Both the position numbers and the translations under genes were made by a program. From a virus, in IMG/VR virus record IMGVR_UViG_3300027870_000322, positions 1-42,328 of that record: DNA of 42,328 nucleotides; one strand, given 5' to 3'. The notes beneath the pieces were generated by a model that was not told the origin of the DNA, did not search any database, and saw nothing but the letters and a program-made list of their open reading frames with translations. Shown piece after piece: positions 23,569 through 38,935 of this stretch (positions within the stretch are counted from its first letter, which is position 1; every line of letters begins with the position of its first letter).

Positions 23569-25556
23569 TGTCTGCCTACCGGCCGGCGCGGCATGCTCTG
23601 GGTCGACGTGGGTTTGGTGGGTGGCGTCCATGGTTCGGGTCTCGTTTGCTCTACTGGGGTGAGTGCTGCTGATAAGGTCGGCGCCGGCGCCGGGATGGGT
23701 TCGCCGCTGGACGCTGGCGGCTGTTCAAACAGGTCAGGGGTATCGGGATCGACGAAGTCTCGCAACGCCTTCCACTGTGCTGGCGTCTTCTTGTGCAGCC
23801 CGAGGTACTGGGCGCACGCCAGGCCGTACACCATCAAGTCGCCAGCCTCGTTACGGTCTGCCTTCTTCTTCTCCCAGATGCGCACCTTGCGCCCGCGCTT
23901 GAACGCGGTGACGCAGTATTCGGCGGTCAGCTGTTGGTAGTACTCGGCTGGCAAGTCGCTCGGGAAGTGGACGGCGCCAGGGCCTGCGGTCAGGTGGTAG
24001 CGCGCGGCCAGGTAGTCCTTCGCCGTGTCGGTACCGATCAGCCACAGCTTGACGCCGTGGGGCATGACCTTGCCCTGCCAGTTCACATCGACCAGCGAGG
24101 GCTTCGTCCCGAGGATCGGTTTGTTCGGCGTCGAGTGGCCCTTGATGGCGTAGATGTGCCGGTGCTGACGGGTACGTGTGAAGTTGTAGACGTCGTGCGT
24201 GTTGGCGCCGCCCGAGTCGATGAACGTTGCGGCGATCGACAGCATGCGGCCGCCGACGTGGCGGTACCGGCCGAGCAGCGCCTGGTCGAGCTTGTCCTGG
24301 GTGGCCTGCTCGGATGGCGAGCCCTCGATCACCTGGTAATCGACCACCCACTTTTCCATTCCCTCGCCCCAGGCCAGCACCTTCAGCTCGAAGCGGTCCG
24401 GCTGCGTGTCGACGCTGCCGGTCAGCACCAGGCCGCCCTTCGGCACCGTGCCCATCTTGTAGGCCTCGGCGCGGGCCTGCAGTTCGCCGGCCTTCGTCTG
24501 TTCTTTCTTGCGTTCCCAGCACCGCGCCAGGCGCGTGTTGTAGAACGTGATCATCAGCTCCTCGCTGCCCTCGTCCAGCTTGGCCCGGGCTGCGCGGTAC
24601 TCGCGCAGCAGCGCGATCCAGGGAAGCCAGCCGTACGGGGCAAACATCGCGTTGATCGTGAAGCTGACGGTCTCGCCATCACCAGGCACGCCGTCCGACC
24701 AGAGGCCGTTTGCGAACATGCGGTTCTTGTCGGTTTCGACCATGAAGGCGCCGCAGTCGATGCAGGGGTAGATGGCATGGCCGTCGTCGTCCTGCTGCAA
24801 GCGCTCGAACACCAGGGGCTGGGCGTGGCCGCAATGCACACACTCGGCCAGTGCCTCCTGCTGCGTCCCCTGCAGGTACAGCGACTCGATAATGGACTGG
24901 CCAGTGATCGTCGGCGAACTGGGGAAGTAGCTCTTGCGGTTGCGCTCGAACGTGGTCTGGCGGGCCTTGGCCAACGCGACCGGATCGCCCTCGCCGTTGA
25001 CGTTGGCCTCGGCGCGATCGACCTCGTCGAACAGCACCCGCCGTGCAGGGATCTCTGAAAGGTTGGCGGCGGCGCCGGCGGTGACGATGTGCAGCGAACC
25101 GCCGATGTATTCCTTCGTGTCGAGCGTGTTGACCGAGTCACGCGACCGTGGCGCCGCCACGCGCTCACGCACCTCGGGTACCGCGGCGATGGTCTTGCTC
25201 ACGCGCGCGCTGGTACGCTTAGCCAGCTTGCCGGTCGGCAGGATCCAGAGGAAGTTGGCCGGCGACTGGTGCACCGTCGAGCAGAACCAGTTCAGGCCGA
25301 CCTGGGTCTTGAGCATCTGCGACGCACCCATCAGCGCGACCGTCTTGCACGGGTGCGTGTCCGACAGGGCCACCATCACCTCGCGCGCGTGTGGCGTGCG
25401 GCTGGTGCGGTACTTGCCCGCCTCATTCGCGCCGGACTCTTTCGGGATGATCATGTAGCGGTCGGCCCAGGCGTCGACCATCATGTTCGGATCAGGCATC
25501 AGGCCGCGCGCGAACGCCGACCTGACGGTGCCAGCTGCAGGGGCGAGACCTATCAT
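23562..25556 (-). CDS. terL: Terminase large subunit (GpA family), 664 aa
   Basis: This is the ATPase/nuclease motor for DNA packaging. The N-terminal ATPase has a deviant Walker A GASQMLKTQ (77-85), an ILPTGKLAKRTSA motif, and Walker B VLFDEVD (174-180). A CxxC pair (ECVHCGH and CIDCGAF, about 248-276) is typical of GpA-type terminases. The C-terminal nuclease region includes GSVDTQPDRFELKVLAWGEG, FIDSGGANTHDVYNF and DLMVYGLACAQYLGL. The ATG at 25556 overlaps the small subunit stop as ATGA. GpA-type enzymes usually cut at cos sites. Confidence 0.94.
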   Translation of the reverse strand: MIGLAPAAGTVRSAFARGLMPDPNMMVDAWADRYMIIPKESGANEAGKYRTSRTPHAREVMVALSDTHPCKTVALMGASQMLKTQVGLNWFCSTVHQSPANFLWILPTGKLAKRTSARVSKTIAAVPEVRERVAAPRSRDSVNTLDTKEYIGGSLHIVTAGAAANLSEIPARRVLFDEVDRAEANVNGEGDPVALAKARQTTFERNRKSYFPSSPTITGQSIIESLYLQGTQQEALAECVHCGHAQPLVFERLQQDDDGHAIYPCIDCGAFMVETDKNRMFANGLWSDGVPGDGETVSFTINAMFAPYGWLPWIALLREYRAARAKLDEGSEELMITFYNTRLARCWERKKEQTKAGELQARAEAYKMGTVPKGGLVLTGSVDTQPDRFELKVLAWGEGMEKWVVDYQVIEGSPSEQATQDKLDQALLGRYRHVGGRMLSIAATFIDSGGANTHDVYNFTRTRQHRHIYAIKGHSTPNKPILGTKPSLVDVNWQGKVMPHGVKLWLIGTDTAKDYLAARYHLTAGPGAVHFPSDLPAEYYQQLTAEYCVTAFKRGRKVRIWEKKKADRNEAGDLMVYGLACAQYLGLHKKTPAQWKALRDFVDPDTPDLFEQPPASSGEPIPAPAPTLSAALTPVEQTRPEPWTPPTKPTSTQSMPRRPVGRQW

Positions 25557-26119
25557 TCGATTGCGTCCTCGACCTGAACCGTCAGCTTCTCTTCGAACAT
25601 ATGAACCAGGCTTTCGAGCAGCGCCCGGTGCTCGCGATCGATGATGGCCTCGCATGCATCGGCACTGGCCAGCGGCGCCACGTCGGCCGCAATACGCCGA
25701 GCGCAATTCATCAGGCCGTCGCGCAGCGCACGTGCCGCCTCGAACACGGCCGAGTCGACATCGCTCTTGACCAGGTACAGGCCGGCCAGCTCGGCCAGCT
25801 TGATCTCGGCGGTTGCCGCCTCCGCCGCCTCCCGACGCGCGCGGCTCGTATCGTAGCCCGGTGTCTTCGCTGGCGGTTCCGCACCTCCTGCACCTCCCGC
25901 ACCCGCCGGGGTCTTGGGCTGCGCTCCATTTGCCAAGGGGTCAGGGCGGTTGCCGTTCGCACGCTGGCGGGTGTTGCGGCGGTAGAGGTGGGTCGCGTAC
26001 TCCTCGTCGACCTTGCCATCGGTGACCGGAATCTCGCAACGCTTCACGGCGTCGTACGCAGACTGGCGGGATATCCCCACGGTCGTGGCCCACTCGGCAA
26101 TGGTTGTCAGGTTCGGCAT
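25553..26119 (-). CDS. terS: Terminase small subunit (Nu1-like), 188 aa
   Basis: This is the DNA-recognition subunit of packaging. The N-terminal winged helix-turn-helix (TIAEWATTVGISRQSAYDAVKRCEIPVTDGKV) is of the Nu1/MerR-like type. A glycine-rich, proline-rich linker (about 55-90) follows, then a long helix (ARREAAEAATAEIKLAELAGLYLVKSDVDSAV) that matches Nu1-type oligomerisation segments, and a C-terminal end that would contact the large subunit. Three CCTGACAA repeats at and before its start are candidate binding sites. Confidence 0.88.
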   Translation of the reverse strand: MPNLTTIAEWATTVGISRQSAYDAVKRCEIPVTDGKVDEEYATHLYRRNTRQRANGNRPDPLANGAQPKTPAGAGGAGGAEPPAKTPGYDTSRARREAAEAATAEIKLAELAGLYLVKSDVDSAVFEAARALRDGLMNCARRIAADVAPLASADACEAIIDREHRALLESLVHMFEEKLTVQVEDAIE

Positions 26120-26245: not shown

Positions 26246-27001
26246 CTAGCGCAGCCCGGCCTCCGCTTGCGCCTGGGCGAACCCTTCCGCGAAGTGCACA
26301 GGGAAACGTTCGTTGACCGTCTCGGTGGCCACCTCGAAGAACCGCAGGCGCGTCTTGTACTGGGCCTGCTCGACGAACACCAGCACCGGGCGGATGGCTG
26401 TGCCGTGGCCGAAGCGCCGCTTGAGGTAGATGCCGGGCGGCAGGCCGCGGTTACCCTCGGGCAGCGCGAAGTAGGTCACGCCCTGGCGCGCGATGGTGCG
26501 ATTCGACCTGGTGCTGCCGGTAGCACGCGACTCGTGGCCGGCGCCACGCTGCACCTTCAGCTGCGACAGCATCTGCCTGATCTGGCCACGCTTCATGTTG
26601 CCGTTGCCGTCCAGCTGGGCGCCGGCGGCCGGTACCGCATACCAGCCTTGCGGCATCATCCCTGCCGACTGAAGCATCCGCTCCATGCCCTTGTGGCCAC
26701 GGCCACCACCGAAGATGTTCGGCGACAGGAAGCGGTCGGCCGGCGTGCCCTTGCCGAATGGGTTGTCCTTGACCCACAGGCGCGCCTCCAGGCTGTTCTT
26801 GTTCGCGGCCTTGATGAACGTTCCGTTCAGGGCGTACGCGGTCGGCCGGTCGAGGGTGCTTTGCATCTCGCCCTTGAATGCGGCCTGGCCATCCTTCATC
26901 GAGCGCGTCAGCGCCGTGGCAGCGACGTACGGACCTTTGCGGCCCAGCTCGGTGATGCGGGCGCCGACATCGGCAAAGTTCGATCGAATGCTGATTCTCA
27001 T
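26246..27001 (-). CDS. Minor tail protein Z-like protein, 251 aa
   Basis: The N-terminus has the layout of lambda gpZ-type tail completion proteins: YVAATALTRSMKDGQAAFKGEMQSTLDRPTAYALNGTFI, a helix with paired basic residues followed by a strand. The middle (LWVKDNPFGKGTPADRFLSPNIFGGGRGHKG) and a basic segment around residue 165 would fit a virion joining role. The ATG at 27001 has AGAGGA five bases upstream. Its position just before terS is unusual for gpZ, which normally follows the head-tail genes, so the family call is tentative. Confidence 0.5.
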   Translation of the reverse strand: MRISIRSNFADVGARITELGRKGPYVAATALTRSMKDGQAAFKGEMQSTLDRPTAYALNGTFIKAANKNSLEARLWVKDNPFGKGTPADRFLSPNIFGGGRGHKGMERMLQSAGMMPQGWYAVPAAGAQLDGNGNMKRGQIRQMLSQLKVQRGAGHESRATGSTRSNRTIARQGVTYFALPEGNRGLPPGIYLKRRFGHGTAIRPVLVFVEQAQYKTRLRFFEVATETVNERFPVHFAEGFAQAQAEAGLR

Positions 27002-27018
27002 CTTTTCCTCTTCAATGC

Positions 27019-27264
27019 CGGGTTTTCCGGCTTCTCGTTCAACCCTGCACGTCTGTAACCCGCATGGATACTGATTCTTAGCAGGGTGTGTACACTTGCA
27101 GGGTTGTTTTTAATATGGCTGTGAAAAACAAGCTCAGCAGTACAGCTACAACTATTCGCACATACGTGCGCAAAACCCGGAAAACCCTGCATACCCTGCT
27201 GAAACCCACTATCCATGCGGCTTCCAGACGTGCAGGGTTTACATGCAACCCTGCTCAACCCTGC
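27019..27264. repeat. Iteron-rich inverted-repeat region, probable replication origin
   Basis: The non-coding gap between the primase-helicase and the gpZ-like gene holds eight copies of ACCCTGC or its complement (starting at 27042, 27081, 27098, 27184, 27193, 27232, 27248, 27258). The last two overlap the 3' end of the primase gene. Two arms, 27041-27089 and 27191-27239, form an inverted repeat with 41 of 49 positions matching. The roughly 100-base centre is AT-rich and has smaller hairpins (TTGTTTTT/AAAAACAA and CGCAC-ATAC-GTGCG). Iterons next to a replication initiator or primase gene are typical of origins. A regulatory RNA is an alternative. Confidence 0.65.
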
Positions 27265-29996
27265 AATGCTCGGTCCGCACGAACGTCGCCCAGCTTCCGG
27301 AACTTGGCGATCTGCTCTTCCAACCCATCCGGGTAGTCGGGGTTGTCGACGACGAACACCATCCTCGATTTCTTGTGTTTGCTTTCGACGGCCACCGCCT
27401 TCTTGGCCTTGTGCTCGCGCCCACCCATCAAGCCGGCGAACTTGCACAGCGTGAGAGGCTTCTCCCCGCTCTTGTCGCACCAGCGCTTGTAGATGATGTA
27501 GAGGTCTTCGGACAGGCAGGAGCAGTACGGCGCATCCAGGTACCCATCCTTCCAGGCGCGATGGAAGCTCATCCAGCCGGCCAGGCCGAACTCGATCACG
27601 CGTTCCTTGGCCAGTGTCATCGGTGGCTTCGTGTGCTCGTTGAAGTCGTCCAGGGGCAGGGTCAACAGGAAGTCGTAGAACGCCTCGATCCCGCCCTGGG
27701 CGATGGCCTGCTGCACGGCTGCATAGAAGGCCGGGTCCTGTTTGCGCCTGGCCTCGATCACCATGAAGCGCCGATCCTCCAGCTCGATCGGGATCGGCTG
27801 CGGCTCGTTCGACAGAAACACCGAATTCATGTGGTTGCGCTCGTCGCGCTCCGGCAGGTTCTTCTGGTTGATGCTCATCGACTTGCCGGTGATCATGTAC
27901 TTCAGCGTGCCGTTGTGGCTGTACTTGTCGTCACGCGACAGCACTTCCTCGAACAGCACGAACAGCTTGCGGCTGCGCCAGGCCGTGAACGTTGAGTCCA
28001 GCTGGTGTTGGCTGGCCACGGTACCGTAGTCGCCGTACACCGGAAGCATCACGTCCTGGAAGAACAGCGACTTGCCAGTGCCCTGCTTCTCGCCGAACAT
28101 CAGCAGCGCGGTCTGCATCTTGGCGCCGGGGTGCTGGAGGGGATAGGCCAGCCAACGCAGAATCCACTCCACGCATTCGGCCGTCTTGTCTTCGGCGTCG
28201 CAAAGCGATGCAAGGAGCGCGAGGATCGGTTTGATCAGTTCCGCGTTGTGCTTCGCCTGCAGCGGCCATCCCAGGAAGATGTTCACGTGGCTGACCGGAT
28301 CGGCGGTCTGGGTCGGGTCGAACACCAGGTTCCGCGCCTCGATGGTCTTGCGCTGCGCATGCTCTTGCCACTTGCCAGTGAGCTCGGCGGTGTAGTCGGC
28401 GCGCACGGCGCCCAGCGACATCACCTGCTGGCCGATGGCGTCCCATACCGTCTCGGTACCGCGCAGGAGGGTGAGGTTGTCGAGCATCTCGCCCAGCTTG
28501 CCGCCGCCGGCGCCGCCTTCGACGGCACGGCCGCCCACGAGGGTGGGCAGGGAGTCGCGCATGATGGTGCGCCGTTTCGGGTCTTTCTCCCAGCTGGCGG
28601 CCAGTTCCTTACCAACCCACGCCGTGAAGGCGGATTTCTTGAGCCGCTGGCGGCGCAAGCTGTCCCATACGTCGGTGGTGGGATAGATCAGGCTGAAGTG
28701 CGACAGCAGCACTTCGAGCGTCGGCACGCGAATGGCCGCGGCCACATCTTCGGGTTCGGCCGGCGCGAGCGCGGCATCTGGTGCCGGCGCCTCGTCGAGG
28801 TAGCTCGGGACGTCGTCCATGACCTCGGGTACCGCGTCCGACGCTTCGCTTGCGCTGAGGGCGCGGGAACGCGCAGCCTGTACCTGGTCGCGCACAATGG
28901 CCAGCGATTCAGCCAGATACAGGTCATTGAAGTCCGACCACTTGTCGTCGATGCGATCGACGAACACCGGCGATACAACGGAGGCGTTGCCGACCACGCG
29001 CGCGGCGGCGCGAGAGCGCGAGAGACCGGCATTCTCGAACTTGCGGATCGACACCTGACGGCCGGCGCGAATATCGGCCTCGATGTAGTCGGTACCCGTG
29101 CTGTCCTTGCGCCAGGTGGCGCGCACGCGCACGATGTCGCCGCCCTTCGATTCGATCTCGTGGTCGGCACCGTTGATGACTGGCACCCACTCGGCGTCGA
29201 AGTCGGCCAGCAACGCCTCGGCCAGGCGCGGCACGAGACGCATGTCGTCGTCGGCCAGGAACAGCAGATGCGCGGCGGGGAAATCGCTGCGCAGCTGCTG
29301 CGCTACCGCCAGCAGGTTGCCGGCATTGAAGGCGACCATCGTTGGCGTGTCGAACTCGGTGGCCATGCGCACGGTTTCGCACGTGGCATAGCCCTCGCCA
29401 ATTTGGATGAGGGGCGTGAGATCGTTGGCGGTACCGAGCAGGCAGCAGGCACCGACCATATCGGCACCCATGCTAAAGCGCTTCGATCCGTCGGGCTCGA
29501 TTCTTTGCAATGCTGCCAGCGTGGCGCCAGCGCGGGTGTATTTCCGTGCTGGCACCAGCAGCTGGCCGCTGGCCATAACGCGCGTGCCCTCGGTGCCAAC
29601 GCGCTTGCGTTCGAGGTAGCCGTGCGCGGCCTCGGCGGCGGAGCGCCAGTCGATGCGCGCGCGGCTTGCGGCCAGCTCGGCAGCACGGGCTTTTCGTTCG
29701 TCCGAGAGGCGCTGCTGCTCTGCCTGCTTACGCTCCGCCTCGGCGCGCTCGGCCGGTGTAACGCCTTCCCAATCGATCGTCACCGGTACCGAGTTCTGGT
29801 CCTGGCCTTGCCAGATGCCATACGCGCCGGTGACGACCTGGCGCCCGCTATTGAGCCGGAGCTCGCGCAGTACGTACCAGGCTTTCTTGCCACGACCGAA
29901 GCGGTGGATCTTCCCGTCAAGGAGAGGATGGCCGGTAGGCAGCGATGGCAGGCCCGAGCCGGTCATCTGGTCGATGACTTGTTCAAGCGTTGCCAT
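27255..29996 (-). CDS. Primase-helicase replication protein, 913 aa
   Basis: This fuses a Toprim-like primase half and an SF3/DUF5906-like helicase half. The Toprim region has LIQIGEGYATCETVRMA (about 195-210) and LLFLADDDMRL with the Asp-rich motif (about 245-255). The ATPase has Walker A FGEKQGTGKSLFF (about residue 635), Walker B KLFVLFEEVLSRDDK (about 680) and NQKNLPERDERNHMNSVFLSNE-like sensor sequences, as in NrS-1/phage primase-helicases. It acts at the fork or origin of the phage genome. The 3' end carries the repeats of the adjacent origin-like region. Confidence 0.88.
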   Translation of the reverse strand: MATLEQVIDQMTGSGLPSLPTGHPLLDGKIHRFGRGKKAWYVLRELRLNSGRQVVTGAYGIWQGQDQNSVPVTIDWEGVTPAERAEAERKQAEQQRLSDERKARAAELAASRARIDWRSAAEAAHGYLERKRVGTEGTRVMASGQLLVPARKYTRAGATLAALQRIEPDGSKRFSMGADMVGACCLLGTANDLTPLIQIGEGYATCETVRMATEFDTPTMVAFNAGNLLAVAQQLRSDFPAAHLLFLADDDMRLVPRLAEALLADFDAEWVPVINGADHEIESKGGDIVRVRATWRKDSTGTDYIEADIRAGRQVSIRKFENAGLSRSRAAARVVGNASVVSPVFVDRIDDKWSDFNDLYLAESLAIVRDQVQAARSRALSASEASDAVPEVMDDVPSYLDEAPAPDAALAPAEPEDVAAAIRVPTLEVLLSHFSLIYPTTDVWDSLRRQRLKKSAFTAWVGKELAASWEKDPKRRTIMRDSLPTLVGGRAVEGGAGGGKLGEMLDNLTLLRGTETVWDAIGQQVMSLGAVRADYTAELTGKWQEHAQRKTIEARNLVFDPTQTADPVSHVNIFLGWPLQAKHNAELIKPILALLASLCDAEDKTAECVEWILRWLAYPLQHPGAKMQTALLMFGEKQGTGKSLFFQDVMLPVYGDYGTVASQHQLDSTFTAWRSRKLFVLFEEVLSRDDKYSHNGTLKYMITGKSMSINQKNLPERDERNHMNSVFLSNEPQPIPIELEDRRFMVIEARRKQDPAFYAAVQQAIAQGGIEAFYDFLLTLPLDDFNEHTKPPMTLAKERVIEFGLAGWMSFHRAWKDGYLDAPYCSCLSEDLYIIYKRWCDKSGEKPLTLCKFAGLMGGREHKAKKAVAVESKHKKSRMVFVVDNPDYPDGLEEQIAKFRKLGDVRADRALQG

Positions 29997-36401: not shown

Positions 36402-36749
36402 GTGAGCACCACTACCCTCACCGCTTCCTACCTGCACAGCCTGCGCGACCTGATCGCCGACGATGGCCGTGCCGCTGCCTACCAGTCGCTGGGCCAGTAC
36501 CGCACCGCCCTGCTGACGCACATCTGCGAGCAGCTGGTGGCGCTCGACGAAGTCGCCGATCAAGAACTGATCCCGCTGGAGCCGGCAGGCTGGCGCGCAT
36601 TCATGGCCGAGGTGTCGTCGTTCGCGAACTGCTTGGTGAATGGCGACATGCTGGCCGCGAAGGCGCGGGCGCTGCTGCGGCGCCGGGCTGTCTTCCGGAT
36701 TGCCGCTGACCCAATTCAGTCACCCACCGAGATGAAGGATGCCGCCTGA
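36402..36749 (+). CDS. Unknown helical early protein, 115 aa
   Basis: A GTG start at 36402 is chosen because AAGGA is 6 bases upstream; the longer frame is a shadow of the previous gene. The product (TTTLTASYLHSLRDLIADDG then YQSLGQYRTALLTHICEQLVALDEVADQELIPLEP) is helical. Its stop overlaps the methyltransferase start as TGATG, implying coupled translation, so it may be a regulator or partner of the methyltransferase. The family is unrecognised. Confidence 0.6.
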   Translation: MSTTTLTASYLHSLRDLIADDGRAAAYQSLGQYRTALLTHICEQLVALDEVADQELIPLEPAGWRAFMAEVSSFANCLVNGDMLAAKARALLRRRAVFRIAADPIQSPTEMKDAA

Positions 36750-38935
36750 TGAAACGCGACCTGATGACCATGGCGCTCGACCTGGGTAACGAGCTGATCA
36801 TCGACAACTTCGCCGGCGGCGGCGGGACCAGCACCGGCCTAGAGGCCGCATTCGGCCGCCCGGTCGATATCGCGATCAACCATGACCCCGAGGCACTAGC
36901 AATGCACGCGATCAACCACCCGCACACGAAGCACCTGTGCGAGAGCGTGTGGGACGTCGACCCGATCGAGGTGACCGGCAACCAGCCGGTGGGCCTGGTG
37001 TGGCTGTCGCCGGACTGCAAACACTTCAGCAAGGCAAAGGGCGGCAAGCCAGTCGAGAAGAAGATTCGCGGCCTGGCCTGGGTGACCATGCGCTGGGCGG
37101 CGAAATGCAAGCCGCGCGTGATCATGCTTGAGAACGTCGAGGAGTTCCAGACCTGGGGGCCGCTGAAGCAGTTGGACGACGGCACCTGGCGTCCGGACCC
37201 GGCGAAGCGCGGTGTCACCTTCCGCAGCTTCGTCCGCCAGCTGGAGCAGCACGGCTACAAGGTCGAGCACCGCGAGCTGCGCGCCAGCGACCATGCGACG
37301 CCGACGATCCGCAAGCGCTTCTTCCTGGTGGCGCGCCGCGACGGCCTGCCAATCCGCTGGCCGGTGGCCACCCACGGCGCGCCGAACTCGCCGGGCGTCC
37401 TGGCCGGCAAGCTACAGCCGCACCGCACCGCGGCGGAATGCATCGACTGGTCACTGCCGTGCCCGAGCATCTTCGGCCGCAAGCGTCCGCTGGCCGATGC
37501 CACGCTGCGCCGCATCGCGAAGGGCATCATGCGCTACGTGGTCGACGCGGCGGATCCGTTCATCGTCGGCCAGGGCGGCCCGATCTACGCCGGCAAGCCG
37601 GTGACGTCCAACCAGCCGTTCGGCACCCTGACGACCGAGAACCACCGCGCCGTGGTCGTGCCGAGCATCGTCCCGGTCACGCACCAGGGCAGCGACCGCA
37701 GCGAGTCGGTGCACGAGCCGTTCCGCACGATCACCGGCGCCCAGCGCGGCGAGAAGGCGCTGGCCACTGCCACGATGGTGCAAGTCGGATATGGCGAACG
37801 TCCAGGCGTGTATCACTGCCAAGCATGTGCGCTCGACTTCGAGGACAAGCATGCCACCGGCGCCGGTGGGCTTGCGCCGGCCGAGTGCCCGCAGTGCGGC
37901 GAAGAAGAGCGTATCTCGGTAGTGCGCGCCCCTCAGGAGCCACGCGCTCTCGATATTGATCGGCCCCTCGGCACGGTTGTCGGCTCCACCAAGGCCGCTC
38001 TGGTCACCGCATTCCTCAACGAGCACGCGAACGCCAGCAATCAGCGCGTCATGCCGGCGGACGAGCCGCTGCGTACGATCTGCGCTCAGGTCAAGGGCGG
38101 CCACTTCAGCATGGTCTCGGCCGCCCTGGTCGGCGTGGGTGGGCGCGCCGGCGACAGCCGCCCGCGCGGCGCCGACGAGCCGACAGCCACGATCACGGCG
38201 AAGGCTGACACCGCGGTGGCGACTGCCTTCCTCGCCAAGCACTACACCGGCGTCGTCGGTTCCGAACTGGAGCAGCCGATCGGCACCGTGACCAGCACGG
38301 ACCACCACAGCCTGGTCACGGCCCACCTGACGAAGTTCCGCACCGGCTCGACCGGCAGCGACCTGACCGAGCCTGTGCCGACGATCACGGCGGGGCCTAA
38401 AGAGAACCCCGCCGGCGCACCGCACGCGCTGGGTCTGGTGTCGAGCCACCTGGTGAAGCTGCGCGGCACCAGCACCGCTGCCGGCGCCGACGAACCGCTG
38501 CACACGATCAGCGCCGGCGGCCAGCATCACGCCGAGGTGCGAGCCTTCCTGCTGAAGTACTACGGCACTGACCAGGACCCGCGACTCAACGAGCCGCTGC
38601 ACACCGTGACGACGAAGGATCGTTACGGCCTGGTCACGATCCAGGGCGTGGACTACCAGATCGTCGACATCGGCCTGCGAATGTTGGCGCCGCACGAACT
38701 GTACCGCGCCCAGGGCTTCCCGGCCGACTACATCATCGACGAGATTCCGGACCCGGCGCTGCTGTTCGTCGGCGGCGAGCAGGTGGACGTCGACCCACTG
38801 TCGCTACCGCGCATCCGGCTCACTAAGTCGGCGCAAGTACGCATGTGCGGCAACAGCGTATGCCCGCCGCTGTCGGAGGCGCTTATCCGCGCAAACTTTG
38901 CGCACGAGCGCGAGATTCTTGCGAGAGCAGCATGA
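36749..38935 (+). CDS. DNA C5-cytosine methyltransferase with repeat-rich target domain, 728 aa
   Basis: This would methylate cytosine C5 in phage or host DNA. Motif I is IIDNFAGGGGTSTGLEAA (17-34), the catalytic motif IV is SPDCKHFS with Cys90, motif VI is ENV (128-130), and motif VIII is RKRFFLVAR. The target-recognition half is unusual: nine units with core (E/Q/R)P-x-x-T-(I/L/V)-T-x (about residues 285-630) and a four-cysteine zinc-finger-like insert (YHCQACALDF...AECPQCGEE, about 355-386). Motifs IX/X lie near the C-terminus (VRMCGNSVCPPLSEALI). No restriction partner is seen, so it likely protects phage DNA or regulates expression. Confidence 0.85.
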   Translation: MKRDLMTMALDLGNELIIDNFAGGGGTSTGLEAAFGRPVDIAINHDPEALAMHAINHPHTKHLCESVWDVDPIEVTGNQPVGLVWLSPDCKHFSKAKGGKPVEKKIRGLAWVTMRWAAKCKPRVIMLENVEEFQTWGPLKQLDDGTWRPDPAKRGVTFRSFVRQLEQHGYKVEHRELRASDHATPTIRKRFFLVARRDGLPIRWPVATHGAPNSPGVLAGKLQPHRTAAECIDWSLPCPSIFGRKRPLADATLRRIAKGIMRYVVDAADPFIVGQGGPIYAGKPVTSNQPFGTLTTENHRAVVVPSIVPVTHQGSDRSESVHEPFRTITGAQRGEKALATATMVQVGYGERPGVYHCQACALDFEDKHATGAGGLAPAECPQCGEEERISVVRAPQEPRALDIDRPLGTVVGSTKAALVTAFLNEHANASNQRVMPADEPLRTICAQVKGGHFSMVSAALVGVGGRAGDSRPRGADEPTATITAKADTAVATAFLAKHYTGVVGSELEQPIGTVTSTDHHSLVTAHLTKFRTGSTGSDLTEPVPTITAGPKENPAGAPHALGLVSSHLVKLRGTSTAAGADEPLHTISAGGQHHAEVRAFLLKYYGTDQDPRLNEPLHTVTTKDRYGLVTIQGVDYQIVDIGLRMLAPHELYRAQGFPADYIIDEIPDPALLFVGGEQVDVDPLSLPRIRLTKSAQVRMCGNSVCPPLSEALIRANFAHEREILARAA
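37605..38630 (+). repeat. Nine protein-coding repeats in the methyltransferase target domain
   Basis: Each unit of roughly 33-45 residues carries EPLxTI(T/S)-like core sequence (QPFGTLTT, EPFRTITG, RPLGTVVG, EPLRTICA, EPTATITA, QPIGTVTS, EPVPTITA, EPLHTISA, EPLHTVTT). The DNA is diverged, so this is an ancient protein repeat. Confidence 0.75.

Follow-up and report, generated by a model that had tools for sequence, protein, structure and literature searches.

The 42,328-base virus record analysed here (the window) carries, directly 3' of its primase-helicase gene, a mirrored array of short repeated words that is best explained as a whole as the replication origin of the prophage, the neighbouring primase-helicase binding its words with its helicase half. 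We put the probability of this reading at roughly 0.87. Comparison of related sequences leads us to propose, with high confidence, that the site is a phage replication origin of the PICI/SaPI type and is recognised by the helicase half of the protein encoded next to it. Origins of this kind are already known; for their wide presence in full-size temperate phages, and for the exchange of helicase and origin, we found no description in the literature searched, to which most subscription journals did not belong.

The iteron array and its neighbouring genes

The window encodes a small and a large terminase subunit (TerS and TerL), a minor tail protein, a CII-like regulator, a DNA methyltransferase and an integrase. 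It is most closely related to IMG/VR contigs and to prophages in Massilia, Duganella and allied Betaproteobacteria; one 89% relative, L004, is carried by Massilia sp. CFBP 13721. A 728-aa protein (36749–38935, +) matches C-5 cytosine DNA methyltransferase families. The features that concern us are as follows.

25553–26119, TerS, ~1 kb downstream of the array and followed by a lambda-gpA-type TerL
27002–27254, no strand, non-coding stretch with the mirrored iteron array, proposed replication origin, between the stop of the primase-helicase ORF at 27255 and the next gene, which starts at 27001; array conserved in relatives
27002–28855, no strand, putative exchangeable cassette of helicase half (from about residue 381) and origin, from block replacement in the relative L006 (blastn)
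27041–27090, plus, left arm of a 50-nt imperfect inverted repeat, 84% complementary to the right arm
27190–27239, minus, right arm of the same repeat, 84% complementary to the left arm
27042–27048, plus, iteron ACCCTGC, exact word match
27081–27087, minus, iteron ACCCTGC, exact word match
27098–27104, minus, iteron ACCCTGC, exact word match
27184–27190, plus, iteron ACCCTGC, exact word match
27193–27199, plus, iteron ACCCTGC, exact word match, 9 bp from its neighbour
27232–27238, minus, iteron ACCCTGC, exact word match
27248–27254, plus, iteron ACCCTGC, exact word match
27258–27264, plus, iteron ACCCTGC, exact word match, within the 3' end of the primase-helicase ORF
27057–27076, plus, second conserved motif in a spacer (AACCCGCATGGATACTGATT), from conserved alignment columns; seen in relatives
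27202–27223, plus, second conserved motif in the mirror spacer (AAACCCACTATCCATGCGGCTT), from conserved alignment columns; seen in relatives
27105–27183, no strand, AT-enriched core between the inner iteron groups, proposed melting region
27157–27172, minus, alternating purine/pyrimidine element TGCGCACGTATGTGCG at one core edge
27255–29996, minus, primase-helicase, 913 aa, proposed initiator (PHROG 2249 'DNA primase', 6e-139; Pfam DUF5906)
27255–27599, minus, C-terminal domain of that protein (residues ~800–913), winged-helix-like in its AlphaFold2 model (pLDDT 86), candidate iteron reader

Eight exact ACCCTGC/GCAGGGT words, as reported in a preliminary description of this DNA, lie within 27042–27264, where 0.037 would be expected per 223 bp (Poisson tail ~8e-17), and no other non-simple 7-mer attains eight copies in any 246-bp stretch of the window. 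The origin reading comes through the whole-window count that the same description had named beforehand as able to refute it, because the word is enriched locally, in one cluster only, and stands at chance level elsewhere (7 copies outside the array vs 6.9 by shuffle expectation for the whole window). Read from the sequence, degenerate copies appear to be present in addition to the exact eight, for example CCGGGTTT near 27175 and AACCCGGC near 27018. The inverted repeat first described with 41 matches in 49 comes out again when its arms are taken to begin at 27039 and end at 27241, and no other 49-nt inverted repeat in the window reaches 36/49 matches with a spacer of at most 300 bp. The centre had been called AT-rich, and the 81-bp core indeed has 59% AT vs 37% for the window. 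The cluster had also been placed in non-coding DNA, which holds for the stretch 27002–27254 but not for the last word, which falls inside the end of the primase ORF.

An alternating purine/pyrimidine element sits at one core edge in most relatives, with differing sequence, and could favour Z-DNA or easy melting; the longest such run in the relatives' cores averages 14.5 nt vs 8.5 in control stretches. A 47-nt perfectly alternating stretch (CACATGTGCGCG...CACATGTGTAT) lies between GACCACGCC iterons 3' of the primase in the relative L095. The second motif reads AAGCC-AGTATCCATGC-GGGTTT in relatives, and each of the two spacers that part outer from inner iterons holds a copy. In the mirror spacer of the window the loop at the centre of the motif is inverted with respect to other phages, between short inverted stems. 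The GC skew of the window has no turning point at the array and is uninformative, an Rfam search returned nothing beyond one chance hit, and a plasmid collection searched with the array DNA gave no match.

On one side the array is abutted by the gene starting at 27001, a PHROG 1924 minor tail protein, and on the other by the primase-helicase gene. The model of the helicase half (pLDDT 84) matched in Foldseek the helicase ring of NrS-1 (E 6.5e-19), the SaPI5 primase-helicase (4e-10) and also poxvirus D5. The primase half is TOPRIM-like, as judged from Pfam Toprim matches in relatives and tblastn to plasmid proteins. For the C-terminal 114 residues the best solved Foldseek match is an archaeal Cdc6/Orc1 initiator on origin DNA, and this weak match (E 0.05) makes the domain a candidate winged-helix-like fold.

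Arrays in related phages

We assembled a set of 100 loci comprising the window, its relatives and named phages. The array lies directly 3' of the primase-helicase and starts at the stop codon in the window and its relatives, and the strongest repeated 8-mer of a locus sits in the 400 bp 3' of the primase stop in 86/100 loci. Mirrored arrays stand 3' of this same gene in phages of Massilia, Duganella, Pseudomonas, Moraxella, Halomonas and Stenotrophomonas, with lineage-specific words that include ACCCTGC, ACCCTGTTA and ACCTGTCT(A/T). The word is ACCCAACAC in Pseudomonas phages PG1, Turba, pAN and SC_9, CTAACCA in Pseudomonas phage KT1, TCCCGCAC in Stenotrophomonas phage S1, TCAGACAG in Halomonas phage H4907 and CCCTGCACA in Moraxella phage Mcat2. 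Among 38 dereplicated relatives with the same word as the window, word positions are 99% identical to it vs 66% for other intergenic positions, and no circular shift of the word mask matches the conservation observed.

A tandem period of 9 bp is dominant in 65/100 loci. Since the lag-9 autocorrelation is raised in the coding control too (736 there vs 1772), probably because of codon periodicity, this period was checked from the word positions. The fullest phage arrays (L084 and L087, single degenerate copies being read from the sequence) run, in primase orientation, as two reverse, one forward and three reverse iterons, a core of 80–106 bp, then three forward, one reverse and two forward. The window retains eight exact copies of this plan, and the Pseudomonas phages differ from it on the outer right.

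Four loci (L009, L010, L066 and L072) mix ACCCTGTTA and ACCCTGC copies 3' of the primase and are possibly intermediates of a word change. With both words present in some arrays, a strict rule of one word for each protein does not hold; the same ACCCTGC core is also used with distantly related helicases (L013, L014 and L102). The array is weaker or partial in L018, L080 and L110, and none was found 3' of the primase in L019 or in YuA, a distant DUF5906 phage. L110 (E. coli CDE2901-yvys) is a satellite-like element with the near-palindromic word GTATAC in a less regular array 3' of its primase.

Iteron word and the helicase half

We compared word class with pairwise protein identity in 62 dereplicated relatives, 42 of them with ACCCTGC and 20 with CCCTGTT. 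A shared word was predicted by identity in the helicase half, with AUC values of 0.95, 0.94 and 0.92 for residues 400–560, 560–800 and 800–913, respectively, but not by identity in the tail gene next to the array (0.63), the primase half (0.56), TerS (0.60), TerL (0.56) or CII (0.55); shuffled labels never gave an AUC above 0.62. The tree of the helicase half shows a single change of word class, that of the primase half nine (FastTree topologies, read without their support values). Where primase halves are >70% identical, the helicase halves of a pair are 76–99% identical if the word is the same and at most 51% identical if it is different.

The pair formed by the window and L006 locates the replaced block. 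By blastn their DNA is 91.5% identical as far as residue 381 of the primase-helicase and 96.2% identical again once the start codon of the following gene is reached; the replacement is confined to the intervening 1.85 kb, the helicase half plus the array. Their primase halves are 97% shared and their words differ. Junctions of this kind recur in other pairs, which are not all independent of one another. From these alignments, helicase half and array appear to have been exchanged between related phages as one block, with the primase half and the late genes staying in place. Linkage through adjacency could contribute to this co-inheritance; the gene equally adjacent on the other side of the array is not linked to the word (AUC 0.63). 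The reverse exchange is seen between L012 and L060, in which the primase halves are unrelated (18% identity), the helicase half is nearly the same and the word is the same.

These comparisons also bear on other explanations of the array. A control region (operator or late promoter), to which a repressor, a CII-like activator or another regulator would bind, would suit a position just upstream of the late (tail and terminase) genes, and symmetric operator clusters exist in phages. We nevertheless consider it improbable: the identity of the CII-like protein has no predictive value for the word (AUC 0.55), the layout fits that of a tested origin and not that of an operator, and a search of the stretch for sigma-70-like promoters, the one promoter type it covered, found none.

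Slightly less credible again is a packaging site (cosB/pac) in which the words are binding sites of the small terminase subunit. TerS and TerL do come soon after the array, and cosB sites are likewise built of repeated TerS sites (PMC6092414). However, word class does not co-vary with the small terminase subunit as in cosB (AUC 0.60 for TerS, 0.56 for TerL) and is predicted instead by the helicase half. The window and L006 are 96% identical over 4 kb downstream, terminase genes included, and yet differ in their words; and the array stays at the primase stop in PG1, Turba, H4907 and Mcat2, where it is separated from the terminase by lysis or other genes.

The words might instead serve mainly as primer-start templates for the primase domain, and not as duplex sites for the helicase, as in the NrS-1 PrimPol, which starts at TTTGGTTA (PMC8718748) and whose helicase domain is the closest solved relative of the one studied here. 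We rate this as very unlikely, lower than a packaging site, given that the word is independent of the primase half (AUC 0.56; 97% shared between the window and L006, with different words) and that this half is of TOPRIM type (Pfam Toprim in relatives), not an archaeo-eukaryotic PrimPol. A decayed mobile element, which the 199-bp unit with 50-nt inverted ends resembles in its MITE-like look, or a transcription terminator, to which one terminator-like hairpin at 27017–27031 could point, hardly merits consideration, as the array is single-copy in the record, keeps a fixed place beside the initiator gene across many lineages whose words differ, and has words far more strongly conserved than its spacers.

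Comparison with satellite origins and a proposed mechanism

The reading as a replication origin, put forward as a candidate in the preliminary description, is supported by the local enrichment of the words, their conservation, their recurrence 3' of homologous primase-helicases, the PICI origin layout and the tie to the helicase half. In PICIs the origin is the region immediately 3' of the initiator gene, with always two iteron sets around an AT-rich region; the pri-ori of the E. coli satellite EcCICFT073 was shown by experiment to support plasmid maintenance, and this mirrored organisation has been published as unique to PICIs (PMC6092414). The iterons of the window had been described as symmetric rather than same-strand, which is correct and is the PICI pattern, not a peculiarity of this phage. 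Because the organisation is found in many full-size temperate phages, its exclusivity to PICIs falls.

The likeness to EcCICFT073 and other PICI origins extends to position, directly 3' of a primase-helicase that carries DUF5906 and matches PHROG 2249 (1e-61 for EcCICFT073 pri-rep), to the mirrored 2-1-3/3-1-2 order with 9–11-bp tandem spacing, 9 bp in the tested EcCICFT073 origin, and, with SaPI origins as well, to mirrored groups around an AT-enriched core. BLASTP and hhalign of the window primase-helicase against EcCICFT073 Pri-Rep were not significant, so we argue the relatedness of the two initiators via their shared families. In E. coli CFT073 and three further satellites (L103, L109, L111 and L112) we count ~10–12 iterons each, ordered as two, one inverted, three, core, three (or two exact), one inverted and two. 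The gaps differ: in phages the outer one is ~17 bp, the inner ~38 bp and the core 80–106 bp, as against 46, 22 and 31–45 bp in PICIs. By our own comparison, phages and PICIs also have the period-9 unit in opposite polarity with respect to the core. The word differs from that of EcCICFT073, and the carrier here is a phage of 42 kb that brings its own terminase, tail and integrase genes, not a satellite relying on a helper phage. The window encodes TerS, TerL, a tail protein and an integrase; its origin would be PICI-like in working, whereas its carrier is not a PICI.

Because the order is the same, the gaps are exchanged and the polarity is opposite, the phage and PICI half-arrays can be seen as inside-out forms of a single module, a reading drawn from our own comparison of layouts and not from a statistical test. 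The proposed half-module consists of an iteron pair or triple, ~20 bp, a single inverted iteron, ~40 bp and a further iteron pair or triple. We tentatively suggest, at somewhat less than even odds, that both of two things hold: that helicase half and origin form one cassette moving between temperate phages while primase half and late genes stay, and that the phage origin is an inside-out PICI origin made from the same half-module. If so, phages and satellites would share one origin design and could exchange it or compete for it.

The iterons bound by SaPI Rep and SCCmec Cch2 lie just 3' of the protein's own gene, and it is the C-terminal domain that binds them (PMC7581432); we base the following mechanism on this behaviour. 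Several copies of the primase-helicase, made from the adjacent gene, would bind the ACCCTGC words via the helicase half, probably contacting them through the winged-helix-like C-terminal domain. The mirrored groups may then seat two helicase rings head to head, flanking the AT-rich core; this core would melt, and each helicase would travel outward. The fused primase domain would start both strands, giving what we expect to be bidirectional theta replication. Like Cch2 and SaPI5 Rep, the window protein would be a D5-type self-loading initiator helicase and would bind iterons just downstream of its own gene (PMC7581432); the SaPI5 primase-helicase structure is among the Foldseek matches of its helicase half. 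Unlike the window array, the Cch2 origin has only three 5-nt iterons (PMC7581432), and the SCCmec and SaPI5 elements belong to Gram-positive hosts, with only remote sequence similarity to the window protein. The position of the array 3' of the primase-helicase offers a simple rule for locating unannotated prophage origins, and natural chimeras such as the window/L006 pair and others should help to work out how a D5-type helicase reads its iteron.

Two further systems resemble the initiator in part. NrS-1 has the closest solved helicase domain to the helicase half of the window, but combines it with an archaeo-eukaryotic PrimPol domain and a sequence-specific primer start, whereas the relatives here have TOPRIM primases. 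The alpha protein of the satellite phage P4 fuses a TOPRIM primase to a superfamily 3 helicase with a C-terminal origin-binding domain, and P4 ori and crr are two separate sites, apart from each other. The window protein shares the fusion of TOPRIM primase and helicase with P4 alpha but, in place of ori plus crr, has a single array abutting its gene, the window holding one cluster of the word.
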